Source: Prochlorococcus sp. AG-402-K04 (lineage in GTDB: Bacteria; Cyanobacteriota; Cyanobacteriia; PCC-6307; Cyanobiaceae). From it: a DNA stretch of 64,000 bases. The translations under genes and the position numbers were made by a program. Shown here in pieces: positions 27,295 through 32,478 of the stretch. The DNA is taken from assembly GCA_003216895.1 (NCBI GenBank), contig QCID01000003.1:40746-104745 (forward strand), written 5' to 3'. The notes beneath the pieces were generated by a model, which was given only the letters and a program-made list of their open reading frames with translations, did no database searches and was not told the origin of the DNA. The first letter of the stretch is position 1; the number at the start of each line of letters is the position of its first letter.

Positions 27295-28053
27295 ATGATA
27301 AAGTTGAAGCCTTGGAATAATATTAAAATAAATGAATGTAATGAGCCTTTAATTTCTATACCAAATTCAATATTTCGTTTAACACCTCATCCTTATATTA
27401 TTTTAGGTGCTCCATATTTAACTGGTGCTGATCCATGGGTTTTACGTAGAAGTGTTTTAAAAAGATTGATACGTGCGCAACAACACCTTTCCGAGATTAA
27501 TCCCCAATTACAATTGGCTTTGTTTGATGCTTGGAGACCTATATCTGTCCAAAAATTTATGTTTAATTACACTATTCAAGAAACTTGTAAGTTGAAGGGA
27601 ATTGATATTAATGATCTTTCTTTCAATGAAGATATCAATGATGTAATTGAGGAGGTTGGTCGTTTCTGGGCAAAACCATCTTCCGATCCTCTGACGCCAC
27701 CTCCGCACAGTACTGGTGCTGCTATTGATTTGACACTTGCTGATATGAATGGTAAACAATTAGATCTTGGTGGAGAGATAGATTTTATTGGACCTGAATC
27801 TATTCCTGACTTTTATAAGAAAGACTCTTTTAAGATATCCTATTCAACACATCAGGTTTTTCACGATAGAAGATCTCTTTTGTTTTCGGTTATGGAACAG
27901 GCTGGCTTTGTTCAACACCCGAATGAATGGTGGCACTTTAGCTATGGAGATCAGTTGTGGTCATGGTTGACTAAAAAAGGTAATGCTATTTATGGAGCTG
28001 CACTTGAGGTAAGTAAAGACATTACACTTTCAGACCCAAGTTTAGTTACATGA
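27295..28053 (+). CDS. VanX-like D-alanyl-D-alanine dipeptidase (M15D)
   Basis: The 252-residue zinc peptidase contains the VanX family motifs: LFDAWRPISVQ, the metal motif HSTGAAIDLTL (SxHxxGxAxD type) and EWWHFSYGDQ with the catalytic Glu and third ligand. There is no signal peptide, so it is cytoplasmic, as VanX is. VanX cleaves free D-Ala-D-Ala; outside resistance clusters such enzymes recycle peptidoglycan dipeptide. No vanH/vanA homologue is nearby. The last 64 bp overlap the 3' end of the convergent sir gene. Confidence 0.88.
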   Translation: MIKLKPWNNIKINECNEPLISIPNSIFRLTPHPYIILGAPYLTGADPWVLRRSVLKRLIRAQQHLSEINPQLQLALFDAWRPISVQKFMFNYTIQETCKLKGIDINDLSFNEDINDVIEEVGRFWAKPSSDPLTPPPHSTGAAIDLTLADMNGKQLDLGGEIDFIGPESIPDFYKKDSFKISYSTHQVFHDRRSLLFSVMEQAGFVQHPNEWWHFSYGDQLWSWLTKKGNAIYGAALEVSKDITLSDPSLVT

Positions 28054-30134
28054 TCTCCAAGACTAGATGAGATTCCGGTGTCTTTCCAGCTAAGGAATAA
28101 AGGCTCTAATGTCTTCTCTAGTTCATTGATAGGCATCTTTTGTAGATATGGAGTCGCCAATCTTTGTAAATTAGTGCTACCACCAAGCCATAGTTGGTAT
28201 TGATTTAGACCACTACCAACTAGAGCTAACTCTGCCATGTATGGGCGAGCACATCCATTTGGACAGCCTGTAACTCTTACCAATATTGATTTATTAATGT
28301 CTAGTCTTTTTAACTGAGTGTTTATTCGCTCTAAGAGCTCTGGCAAAAATCTTTCTGCCTCTGTCATCGCGAGTCCACATAACGGTAGAGCTGGACACGC
28401 CATTGCATGTCTAGTAATTGGTTCGGGGCTTTCTGGGTTATTAAAACCAATATTAATAAGAGCATTCTTTACACTAGCCTTTTGATAATTTCCGATATTA
28501 CACAAAAGTAAATCTTGGTTGGGAGTTAAGCGTACATCTAATGCGAATTTTTCAACTATATTTCTTAGCTCTTTCTTTACCTCTCCGGTAAGCCTACCTG
28601 ATAATAGTGGTAGCCCAACAAACCATAGTTTCTCAGATTGTTGATGCCATCCTAAATAATCTTCAAGCACTGTATCCCCTTCGTTCCTTAAGGTGCCAAT
28701 ATCTTTCGTAAAATATTTCGTTGTTAACTTTTTCTTAAACCAATCGACACCCATGTCATGCAAAACATATTTAAGTCTTGAGTGCCTTCGAGTTTTTCTA
28801 TCTCCATAATCTCTTTGAAGAGCGAGAATAGATTGAACAAGCTCTAATATATATTTCCCTTCTACAAAACCTATAGGATCTGCCATCCTCGCAAATGTTG
28901 TATCTAAATTGTGTGTTCTACCCATGCCTCCTCCAACGTAGACATTACATCCTTCTATAGTTCCTTTTTTATTTGTGAATGTCACTAGACCTATGTCATG
29001 AGTAAGAATATCTACAGAATTATCACCTGGTACTGTAGTTGCACATTTGAATTTTCTTGGTAAGTAGGTTGTGCCATACAAAGGTTCATTTTTGTCGCCA
29101 CTATAAACACCAGGATTTCGCTGAAGCTTTCTGTTCTTTTTGACTTCGGAGGTTGGCTTGATAGCATATTTCATCTCGCCATCAACCCATAAATCAATGT
29201 AGGTTTTCTCTGCTTTTTGCGGCGATAAAACATCGGCAATATCATTAGCTAATTTCCTTGCAGCAGGATAGCCCCCTTTTTCGTAAGGAGCTGCGGGAGC
29301 CATTACATTCCTGTTGACGTCTCCACAAGCCGCGAGGGTTGATCCCATTGATTTCACAATTGTTCCTATTACTTCTTTAATATTTCCTTTTTTTATTCCA
29401 TGCATTTGAAAGCATTGACGAGTGGTCACTCTGAGCGTTTTATTCCCTAGTCGATCAGAGAGATCATCTAATGCTACAAATAGGGGCCCAGGCACCAGAC
29501 CAGCTGGATTTCTTAGCCTCAGCATCATTTGCCAATCTTTACCTGTTCCGCCTTTCTTTCTATGTTCCCGATCATCTTGTTGATAACTACCATGGAATTT
29601 TAAAAGTTGTACTGCGTCGTTTGTAAAGTGATCGCTGTCGTTTGATAATTCACTTTGAAGAGGTTCATTTAAGTAATTACTATCAGCTTTAAATTGTTCA
29701 AATTTTGCTCTAGGGGAACTATTAGCTATGCAAGGTGATGGAACAGTCTTTTCTATTTCTTCAATATTTTTACTTCCACTTTCCTCGAAATTCATCAGAG
29801 CTTCAATAGCTGCATTACTGAAGCCAGCATCTTTTAAGTCTCTTTCTATGTTTTTTGGTGATTCTTTTGGATTACTATTTTTAATAGCCTCGAGTTTTAT
29901 GCCCTTAGGTAAGGATTTATTGATCTGTTTGGACTCTTCTTCTCTGAGCTTTTCATCAAATTTTTGTTGAATAGCTATTTCTGCTGAGCTTATGTTCTCT
30001 TCTGCTTCTTGCTTAGTGTTACCTATTTTTTTTACTACATCACATGTTCCAAAAGCATCCCTTAATCTACCCCTCGGTACAGCGACCCTGAGGTAAAACC
30101 CAGATCTTCCAGGTATTTGTATTATCTTAGGCAA
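27990..30134 (-). CDS. sir: Ferredoxin-sulfite reductase with unusual N-terminal extension
   Basis: The enzyme reduces sulfite to sulfide with ferredoxin electrons. The siroheme/[4Fe-4S] cysteines are Cys580 and Cys586 (ACPALPLCGLA) and Cys624 and Cys628 (TGCPNGCARPY). The typical cyanobacterial start would be near SPRAKFEQFKADS (residue ~141). Upstream, the frame stays open for 140 codons: residues 1-65 (GRSGFYLRVAVPRGRLRDAF) look like an integrase N-terminal domain, and 95-117 like a small UBA-like helix unit. The first possible start after an in-frame TAG is TTG at 30134; an internal ATG at 29795 would give 601 residues. Which start is used cannot be decided here. Confidence 0.93.
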   Translation of the reverse strand: MPKIIQIPGRSGFYLRVAVPRGRLRDAFGTCDVVKKIGNTKQEAEENISSAEIAIQQKFDEKLREEESKQINKSLPKGIKLEAIKNSNPKESPKNIERDLKDAGFSNAAIEALMNFEESGSKNIEEIEKTVPSPCIANSSPRAKFEQFKADSNYLNEPLQSELSNDSDHFTNDAVQLLKFHGSYQQDDREHRKKGGTGKDWQMMLRLRNPAGLVPGPLFVALDDLSDRLGNKTLRVTTRQCFQMHGIKKGNIKEVIGTIVKSMGSTLAACGDVNRNVMAPAAPYEKGGYPAARKLANDIADVLSPQKAEKTYIDLWVDGEMKYAIKPTSEVKKNRKLQRNPGVYSGDKNEPLYGTTYLPRKFKCATTVPGDNSVDILTHDIGLVTFTNKKGTIEGCNVYVGGGMGRTHNLDTTFARMADPIGFVEGKYILELVQSILALQRDYGDRKTRRHSRLKYVLHDMGVDWFKKKLTTKYFTKDIGTLRNEGDTVLEDYLGWHQQSEKLWFVGLPLLSGRLTGEVKKELRNIVEKFALDVRLTPNQDLLLCNIGNYQKASVKNALINIGFNNPESPEPITRHAMACPALPLCGLAMTEAERFLPELLERINTQLKRLDINKSILVRVTGCPNGCARPYMAELALVGSGLNQYQLWLGGSTNLQRLATPYLQKMPINELEKTLEPLFLSWKDTGISSSLGDHVTKLGSESVMSLLTSSAAP

Positions 30135-30135
30135 T

Positions 30136-30158
30136 GGTACCTACACCGGTACCTACAC
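30136..30158. repeat. Tandem 11-bp direct repeat upstream of sir
   Basis: Two exact copies of GGTACCTACAC (30136-30146 and 30148-30158) are arranged with a 12-bp period directly before the sir TTG start. Each copy also contains the palindrome GGTACC. The GC content is far above the surrounding spacer. Such short repeats beside a reading frame resembling an integrase N-terminus recall recombinase arm-type sites or an autoregulatory operator; this link is inference. Confidence 0.75.
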
Positions 30159-30315
30159 TGTATCATTTTTCGTGTTGCTTAGTGCCTAATTGTTCAAATA
30201 AAACCATGAGTGAACAAAGATTCATTCATTGAAAATTAAATTTTTTCTAGGACACAGAATGTAGAAGTAATTCAGATTTAGATCTAATCTTGTTGTGTAC
30301 ATAAGGAAATTATTT

Positions 30316-32478
30316 TTGTCTACTTACCTTTTAGAAATCGGCACTGAGGAACTGCCAGCTGATTTAGCTGAATCAGTTATTTCCCAGCTTGAAATAAATG
30401 TAAATAACGACTTAAATTCTTCTCAAATAAAATTTAGAGAAATAAGAGTAACCACTACTCCTAGAAGAATTGCATTAACGATTGAAGGGATTGCTCCATT
30501 TTCTGAAGATAATATTTCAGAACGAAAAGGTCCTCCTCTTTCTCAAGCTTTTCATGATGGAGAGCCTACAAAAGCAGCAATTGGTTTTGCTAGAAGATAT
30601 AACCTTACTCCTGAAAAATTAGAGGTACGAGAAACGCCAAAAGGGTCATTTGTTTTCGCTCAATTAATAGAGAAAGGCAAGCCTGTTGGGAGTTTGTTGG
30701 TTGATTATTTACCTGGATGGATCAGCAAAATTCAAGGAAGAAGGTTTATGAAATGGGGTAAAGGTGATTTTCGCTTTTCGAGACCTATCCGTTGGATAGT
30801 CTCTTTGATTGATTCAGAAGTTCTACCTTTTAAAATTTTAGGGTGCGACCCAGAAATTCAAATTAGTAATATCTCAAGACCACATAGGTTGCATGGCTCA
30901 ACATTAGAAATTAAGAATGCGAACACTTATTTTGATCAATTGCAGGATTTAGGAGTAATAGTTGATCGGAATAGTCGCCTTTCAAATATTAGCGAGTTGG
31001 TTCTTAATCACGAAACAAATAAAAAAGTTAAGCCTGATCTAACTCAACCTCTTTTGAGTGAACTGACCGATCTAGTTGAGTCTCCTTTACTTGTGACTGG
31101 GAGCTTTGATGAGTCTTTCCTCGATTTACCACCTGAGGTTTTGTCCACAGTGATGAAGGTTCATCAAAGGTATATACCTGTATACAAATTAAATGTTGAG
31201 TTTGATCCATTGTCACTTGACTCAAGAAATATTTTACTCCCAAGTTTTTTATGTATTAGTAATGGATTATCTTCAGCGAAAGAGAATATTATGTTAGGTA
31301 ATGAAAAAGTATTAAAGGCTAGGTTTTCTGATGCTTCATTTTTTATAAAGTCAGATTTATTAATCAATAGTTCTTCACGTATTAATAAATTAAAAGATGT
31401 AACTTTTGCTGAAGGACTAGGTTCTTTATATGAGCGTGTAAATCGTATTGAATGGCTTACTAAATTAGTGACATCAAAACTTAAATTTCATCAAGAGGAT
31501 ATTGAGAAATCTGTGAAAGTTGCACATTTTTCTAAACATGATTTGGTTAGCAACATGGTTGGCGAGTTCCCTGAATTACAAGGAATTATTGGATCTAAAT
31601 ACTTACTTCATGAGGGTGAATCTAGAGATGTATGCCTTGGTGTTTTGGAACATTACAAACCCAAAGGAACTTCAGACTCTCTTCCCTCAAATAATCTTGG
31701 TAATGCGGTTTCATTAGCTGAACGTTTTGAATTACTTTTTAGTATCTATGCAAAGGGTGAAAGACCTTCTGGCTCTTCTGATCCATATGCTTTAAGAAGG
31801 GCTGCTAATGGAATATTGTTGATTTTATGGAATAAAGACTGGCAATTAAATATCAATGAAATACTAAATGATTCACTATGTTATTGGCAGCAACTTTTCC
31901 CTTCTCTCCCTTTTGATATAAGTAGACTTGTCAGCGAATTAAAGGAATTTTTTCGTCAAAGAATTATTAGTTTATTAGAAGAGAAAAATATCGATTTTGA
32001 TATTATTCAGGCAATTACAGGAGATACAATTTCAATATCAAAATTATTAGATGATCCAACTGATGTTTATTTTCGAACTTCATTATTAATGGAAATGAGG
32101 AAAAATAATACACTTAATTTGTTGCAAGCTGTAGTGACTCGAGCCTCTAAGTTGGCAGCTAAAAGTTCTATCCCAAATGATGCAACAGATCCTTTAGATT
32201 TTGTAGATACATCACTATTTGAGAAGGCATGTGAAATAGAAATGTTTAATGTTTTGGAGAAATTAAAGCCTTTAGCTATAAATTGTGAGCGTGTTAAATA
32301 TAAATTGTTAGCTGATGGTCTAGTCTCAAGTGCAAAAACTTTGGCCAACTTTTTTGATGGAGAAGGAAGTGTTATGGTTATGACGGATGATATTAATCTA
32401 AGAAATAACAGATTAAATCTACTGACAATCCTTAGGAATCAATCTTTGAAGCTTGCAGATTTTAGCAAGCTTAGTTAA
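30316..32478 (+). CDS. glyS: Glycine-tRNA ligase beta subunit
   Basis: The protein begins with the standard GlyS N-terminus STYLLEIGTEELPADLAESVI and continues with TTPRRIA, KGPP and the RFMKWGKGDFRFSRPIRWIVSL segment; the C-terminal part contains the HD-like and anticodon-binding regions (SSDPYALRRAANGIL). It forms the alpha2beta2 enzyme with GlyQ, which must be encoded elsewhere. The ORF track starts at a GTG at 30295, but TTG at 30316, preceded by AAGGAAAT, matches the conserved N-terminus and gives 720 residues. It is divergent from sir. Confidence 0.96.
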   Translation: MSTYLLEIGTEELPADLAESVISQLEINVNNDLNSSQIKFREIRVTTTPRRIALTIEGIAPFSEDNISERKGPPLSQAFHDGEPTKAAIGFARRYNLTPEKLEVRETPKGSFVFAQLIEKGKPVGSLLVDYLPGWISKIQGRRFMKWGKGDFRFSRPIRWIVSLIDSEVLPFKILGCDPEIQISNISRPHRLHGSTLEIKNANTYFDQLQDLGVIVDRNSRLSNISELVLNHETNKKVKPDLTQPLLSELTDLVESPLLVTGSFDESFLDLPPEVLSTVMKVHQRYIPVYKLNVEFDPLSLDSRNILLPSFLCISNGLSSAKENIMLGNEKVLKARFSDASFFIKSDLLINSSSRINKLKDVTFAEGLGSLYERVNRIEWLTKLVTSKLKFHQEDIEKSVKVAHFSKHDLVSNMVGEFPELQGIIGSKYLLHEGESRDVCLGVLEHYKPKGTSDSLPSNNLGNAVSLAERFELLFSIYAKGERPSGSSDPYALRRAANGILLILWNKDWQLNINEILNDSLCYWQQLFPSLPFDISRLVSELKEFFRQRIISLLEEKNIDFDIIQAITGDTISISKLLDDPTDVYFRTSLLMEMRKNNTLNLLQAVVTRASKLAAKSSIPNDATDPLDFVDTSLFEKACEIEMFNVLEKLKPLAINCERVKYKLLADGLVSSAKTLANFFDGEGSVMVMTDDINLRNNRLNLLTILRNQSLKLADFSKLS

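Follow-up and report, generated by a model that had tools for sequence, protein, structure and literature searches.

Trigger enzymes such as PutA, NadR and BirA are metabolic enzymes that carry a DNA-binding domain and act at their own or at related promoters. They use RHH or HTH domains for this purpose, whereas the sulfite reductase (SiR) analyzed here carries a domain of the integrase arm-binding type. Self-regulation is also described for an integrase. In the KplE1 prophage, the integrase IntS represses its own gene by acting at an arm-type site, with an effect on the -10 box (PMC2951348). The sir locus resembles this system in having arm-type-like sites next to a -10-like box at the gene's own promoter, but repression at sir is only proposed, and the regulator would be a metabolic enzyme with a captured domain rather than an integrase. 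Finally, plastid ferredoxin:sulfite reductase (DCP68) is reviewed as binding and compacting DNA (PMC4154389). This DNA-binding protein belongs to the same enzyme family as the fused SiR; however, it has no added DNA-binding domain and compacts DNA rather than acting at a promoter site.

Tyrosine recombinases with a DUF6538-like domain, encoded on islands of Prochlorococcus and Synechococcus (for example G002:C1:128980-130248 and G158:C1 at 1366.7 kb), share several features with sir. Their N-terminal domain is homologous to that of the fused SiR, tandem 9-mers lie 12-13 nt apart before their start codon, and TTG or GTG starts are common among them. In contrast to these recombinases, sir has neither the core-binding and catalytic domains nor a distal repeat cluster, and it is a fixed chromosomal gene.

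A sulfite reductase with an integrase-type head

The window, a 64,000-nucleotide stretch from a partial (74%) Prochlorococcus genome, carries sir on the minus strand at 27990..30134. The frame is open from the TTG start codon (30132..30134) to the stop at 27990 and encodes 714 aa, comprising an integrase-type N-terminal domain, a linker and a complete ferredoxin-type sulfite reductase. We refer to residues 1-67 (29934..30134, minus strand), the captured domain of arm-binding type, as the head. The linker (residues 68-133; 29736..29933, minus strand) leads into the native SiR body, which runs from PCIAN onward (27993..29735, minus strand); this boundary agrees with the locus comparison below and with the match to solved SiR structures, which begins only at residue 132-137. 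After the head, Pfam finds only NIR_SIR and NIR_SIR_ferr. These domains and the cluster-binding cysteines identify the protein as an assimilatory sulfite reductase, and C580, C586, C624 and C628 are invariant with their surroundings in 27 sequences. A core-binding and catalytic integrase domain (R..HxxR..Y) is absent from the fused SiR. Upstream and divergent lies glyS, encoding the glycyl-tRNA synthetase beta subunit (30319..32478, plus strand; the listed open reading frame begins at 30295). Convergent to sir is a gene that we take to encode a VanX-like D-Ala-D-Ala dipeptidase (27295..28053, plus strand); the 3' ends of the two genes overlap by about 64 bp (27990-28053).

A first-pass annotation of this DNA had pointed out that the sir frame is open far 5' of the usual start and had judged this stretch to be, or to have once been, coding. 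Both points hold. The extension comprises 133 residues, and 27 genomes of the genus contain residues 1-134 as an uninterrupted frame with 75-99% identity. In pairwise comparisons of 31 distinct sequences, residues 1-67 have a median dN/dS of 0.057 and residues 68-138 one of 0.174; two regions of the enzyme give 0.053 and 0.098. The head thus evolves as slowly as the enzyme and is under strong purifying selection; a chance open frame or a pseudogene is excluded.

The same annotation had suggested a domain fusion from a mobile element and likened the extension to DUF6538-type recombinases. The fusion is well supported. Residues 1-64 match tyrosine recombinases of 424-450 aa from the same bacterial family, reverse searches also match, and a profile of the extension finds its closest integrase, a G158 tyrosine recombinase, at E 3.9e-15. 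Over residues 1-67 the protein shows homology to the N-terminal domain of tyrosine recombinases of 400-450 aa, the related integrases match Pfam Phage_integrase, and R10, G12, Y14, P20 and K36 are invariant across sir heads and integrases. The likeness to DUF6538 itself needs qualifying: the DUF6538 model (PF20172) gives no match on the sir extension, and the nearest integrase relatives score 22.3 and 17.2 bits against a curated cut-off of 27, while a more distant member of the set reaches 58.5 bits. A direct Pfam search with the extension returned nothing beyond weak DUF4473/FAM25 noise.

AlphaFold2 predicts for the head a beta-beta-(short helix)-beta-long helix arrangement with pLDDT of about 90 over residues 1-67, joined to the enzyme by a mostly disordered linker. 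Neither a Foldseek search with this model, which gave weak integrase rows only, nor a PDB profile search with the head found a significant structural relative or a matching solved structure. Within the linker, two conserved helices at about residues 93-117 look like part of the linker in the closest integrases; homology over residues 68-128, similar by eye, was rejected as not significant. Weak matches of residues 53-132 to proteins of about 417 aa were also set aside, the one inspected overlapping a sugar-kinase-like open reading frame and looking like chance.

Distribution and single origin of the fusion

The extension is present in all 30 searched genomes of this Prochlorococcus genus that hold sir, and in one sister genus, where residues 1-67 are 64% identical; named relatives that carry it are Prochlorococcus single-cell genomes such as AG-402 and AG-311. 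A search with the sir body found sir in 130 of 130 well-completed genomes of the family sample; the extension is absent from other genera. In those genera the open frame mostly spans about 590-620 aa, and an extension common to all cyanobacterial sir genes, which the first-pass annotation had named as a result that would speak against a fusion, is thereby excluded. Another eleven members of the genus lack the extension but do not count as counter-examples: the query that recovered sir from the well-completed genomes detects no sir in any of them, and their completeness is 54-88%.

Fused and unfused genomes have the same glyS-sir-vanX locus. Unfused sir encodes about 590-600 aa, and its GTG start codon lies about 22 codons ahead of the SPCIAN motif common to both forms; the integrase piece therefore replaced the native SiR N-terminus. 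In a tree of the enzyme body, from which the extension was left out, all fused sequences fall on one side of one branch (support 100/98, one change). The fusion arose once.

Repeats at the sir start and in integrative elements

Directly 5' of the sir start codon lies GTAGGTACC-GGT-GTAGGTACC (30136-30156), which the first-pass annotation had missed. Both copies are on the minus strand with a period of 12 nt: the start-proximal repeat 2, which resembles an arm-type site, at 30136..30144 and repeat 1 at 30148..30156. Repeat 1 is abutted by a -10-like box, TACAGT (30157..30162, minus strand). A promoter scan found no consensus sigma-70 -35/-10 pair at sir. Across 31 distinct genomes the first sir codon, TTG in 29 and GTG in two, lies 1-3 nt 3' of the repeats. 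Nucleotide diversity in 31 genomes is 0.014 for each repeat, 0.042 for the -10-like box, 0.206 for the 3-nt spacer and 0.31 for sequence farther upstream. Each of the 30 sir-holding genomes has exactly one double site, located at sir, and none was found in the searched genomes without sir. The sister genus has GTTGGTACC at both positions, so the copies have changed in concert.

The same layout precedes the integrase genes. Using a 9-mer match of at least 8/9 as the criterion and shuffled sequences as control, we found a 9-mer repeated at an offset of 12 or 13 in 24 of 39 non-redundant regions upstream of integrase-type heads; other offsets gave 0-1 of 39, and the rate in shuffles did not exceed 1%. 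Each element has its own 9-mer, while the tandem arrangement, the 12-13 nt spacing and the position before the start codon are kept, and a -10-like box again lies beside the repeats. In addition, six of eight elements examined contain a distal tandem cluster of their own 9-mer 2-15 kb away (0 or 1 of 100 shuffles per element); the other two have none within 20 kb. Paired start sites and distal clusters are the anatomy of arm-type sites, to which an integrase binds with its own N-terminal domain, which argues that sir captured an arm-binding domain together with its sites. The promoter-proximal pair is all that fused sir keeps, and a fused Rieske oxygenase likewise has this pair and no distal cluster.

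In the complete genome G002, the integrase (G002:C1:128980-130248) lies within a 7.3-kb element (L196:2559-9863 = G002:C1:123058-130362) that ends on either side in a direct repeat of the 3' portion of ssrS, the 6S RNA gene; genomes G000, G010 and G033 have a single copy of this part, versus two in G002. The element's 9-mer, GGTAGGACC, occurs eight times against 0.6 expected: as a pair at the integrase start, and as four tandem copies and a further two immediately inside the opposite end. A similar 6S RNA sequence also adjoins other integrases of the set, so 6S RNA seems to serve repeatedly as an integration site in picocyanobacteria. Tycheposon-type integrative elements are recognized by their structure and by their targeting of tRNA genes; the G002 element uses the 6S RNA gene. 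Searches of viral and phage collections with two of the integrases gave no match.

The distal clusters of G002 (L196:2667-2713) and G261 (L203, G261:C1:632274-632321) have nearly the same spacing (0, 13, 26, 38 nt) and unrelated 9-mers, GGTAGGACC and TGGTCCTGCA; this combination could possibly reflect a specificity code of the integrase head. The integrase nearest the SiR head has the repeat nearest that of sir, TTGTAGGTAC. Head and repeat distances correlate (Mantel r 0.286, 0 of 5000 permutations), a value that carries little weight because a control stretch upstream is nearly as high (r 0.208) and shared descent could explain most of it. Short open reading frames of 111-141 aa that consist of an integrase head only were seen at L078:2239-2601 and L065:2506-2823, the former with tandem repeats upstream (TTTGTCAGT). 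They may be decayed integrases or stand-alone binding proteins.

The fused Rieske oxygenases belong to another Prochlorococcus genus (g41), in which an integrase head is joined to a Rieske/ring-hydroxylating oxygenase in two genomes, G388 (L071 from 2311, plus strand) and G407 (L076 from 2402, minus strand). Both genes have tandem 9-mers before the start codon, one reading GGTTCTACC-ATA-GGTTCTACC and the other being a degenerate pair. Between the two genomes the heads are 53% and the enzymes 66% identical, while the stretch between them is only 29% identical, which indicates that the head is kept in this fusion too. The second capture suggests that the route recurs.

A proposed autoregulatory circuit

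Integrases such as IntS repress their own gene via arm-type sites next to the -10 box, and a gene that takes over promoter, sites and head would inherit this loop; on this ground we propose that SiR limits its own synthesis. In the ancestor that the genus shares with its sister genus, an integrative element with a tyrosine recombinase would have separated glyS from sir. As the remainder of this element was lost, the integrase 5' end would have become joined in frame to sir, which would have taken over the -10 region of the integrase promoter, the two arm-type repeats, the start codon and the arm-binding domain, the native N-terminus of about 20 residues giving way to the integrase piece. The head would have been retained because it still binds the two repeats, now part of the sir promoter and start region. 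SiR bound to GTAGGTACC-N3-GTAGGTACC would sit over the transcription and translation start and restrain its own production by negative autoregulation, possibly gated by its assembly or cofactor state.

We consider it likely that sir captured the 5' end of an integrase gene along with its sites and that the head was kept for binding the repeats, with negative autoregulation as the most likely outcome. Computation shows the homology, the single origin, the purifying selection on the head, repeats at sir that are nearly invariant and unique, such repeats before integrase genes together with their distal clusters, and the origin of the sir sites as integrase sites. From these sequence features we infer that the SiR head binds DNA specifically and acts as a repressor and not an activator, along with any sensing of the enzyme state; SiR probably senses and controls its own production in the manner of a trigger enzyme. 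We also think it fairly probable that an arm-binding domain and its cognate arm sites, captured together, made the enzyme its own repressor in one step, by a route that is repeatable, as with the Rieske oxygenase of another genus and its own repeat pair.

Capture of a working promoter would be a simple way to fix such a fusion, and the repeats extend over the likely start of transcription and directly adjoin the start codon. It could be, then, that promoter and leader were all that sir gained, that the repeats serve transcription or translation start, and that the head is tolerated or structural and does not bind DNA. We regard this as unlikely, because the head, under the same constraint as the enzyme, keeps the integrase-invariant R10, G12, Y14, P20 and K36, which a structural extension would not need, and because the distal clusters of the same repeats in the elements argue for protein sites rather than leader signals. 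The head derives from a DNA-binding protein, and the first-pass annotation had pointed to the plastid enzyme when it suggested a DNA-binding module on SiR. On this reading the fused SiR would be a general DNA or nucleoid binder. Plastid SiR does bind and compact DNA (PMC4154389), but compaction of that type requires no such domain, and a conserved double site present at sir alone fits local regulation rather than genome-wide binding. Nucleoid compaction is accordingly disfavored as very improbable, the sequence-specific sites at the sir promoter pointing to gene regulation instead.

As the sites are of the integrase arm type, they might be bound by integrases of resident elements, with the SiR head competing or titrating. 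We give this little credence: within the genus such an integrase, besides fused sir, was found only in G002, where the 9-mer is GGTAGGACC and not GTAGGTACC, and genomes that have no such integrase keep the sites with no loss of repeat conservation. That the extension is an untranslated leader and the real start lies near residue 114, where most strains have an ATG, is hardly credible given the dN/dS of 0.057 upstream of codon 114, the strains in which this codon is not a start codon and the TTG/GTG alternation at codon 1.

Enzymes that regulate their own gene are a known kind, while for an enzyme to capture an integrase arm-binding domain along with the matching sites is new as far as can be told; we found no description of it in the literature searched, outside which most subscription papers lie. 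The autoregulatory capture proposed for sir would mean that a metabolic gene in a streamlined genome acquired a ready-made circuit of binding domain and operator from a mobile element, and with fused sir this can be tested directly in an abundant marine phototroph. The comparison also exposes a general code, in which the element-specific arm-type 9-mers differ completely and the layout is constant, and which could let integrase specificity be read from sequence.
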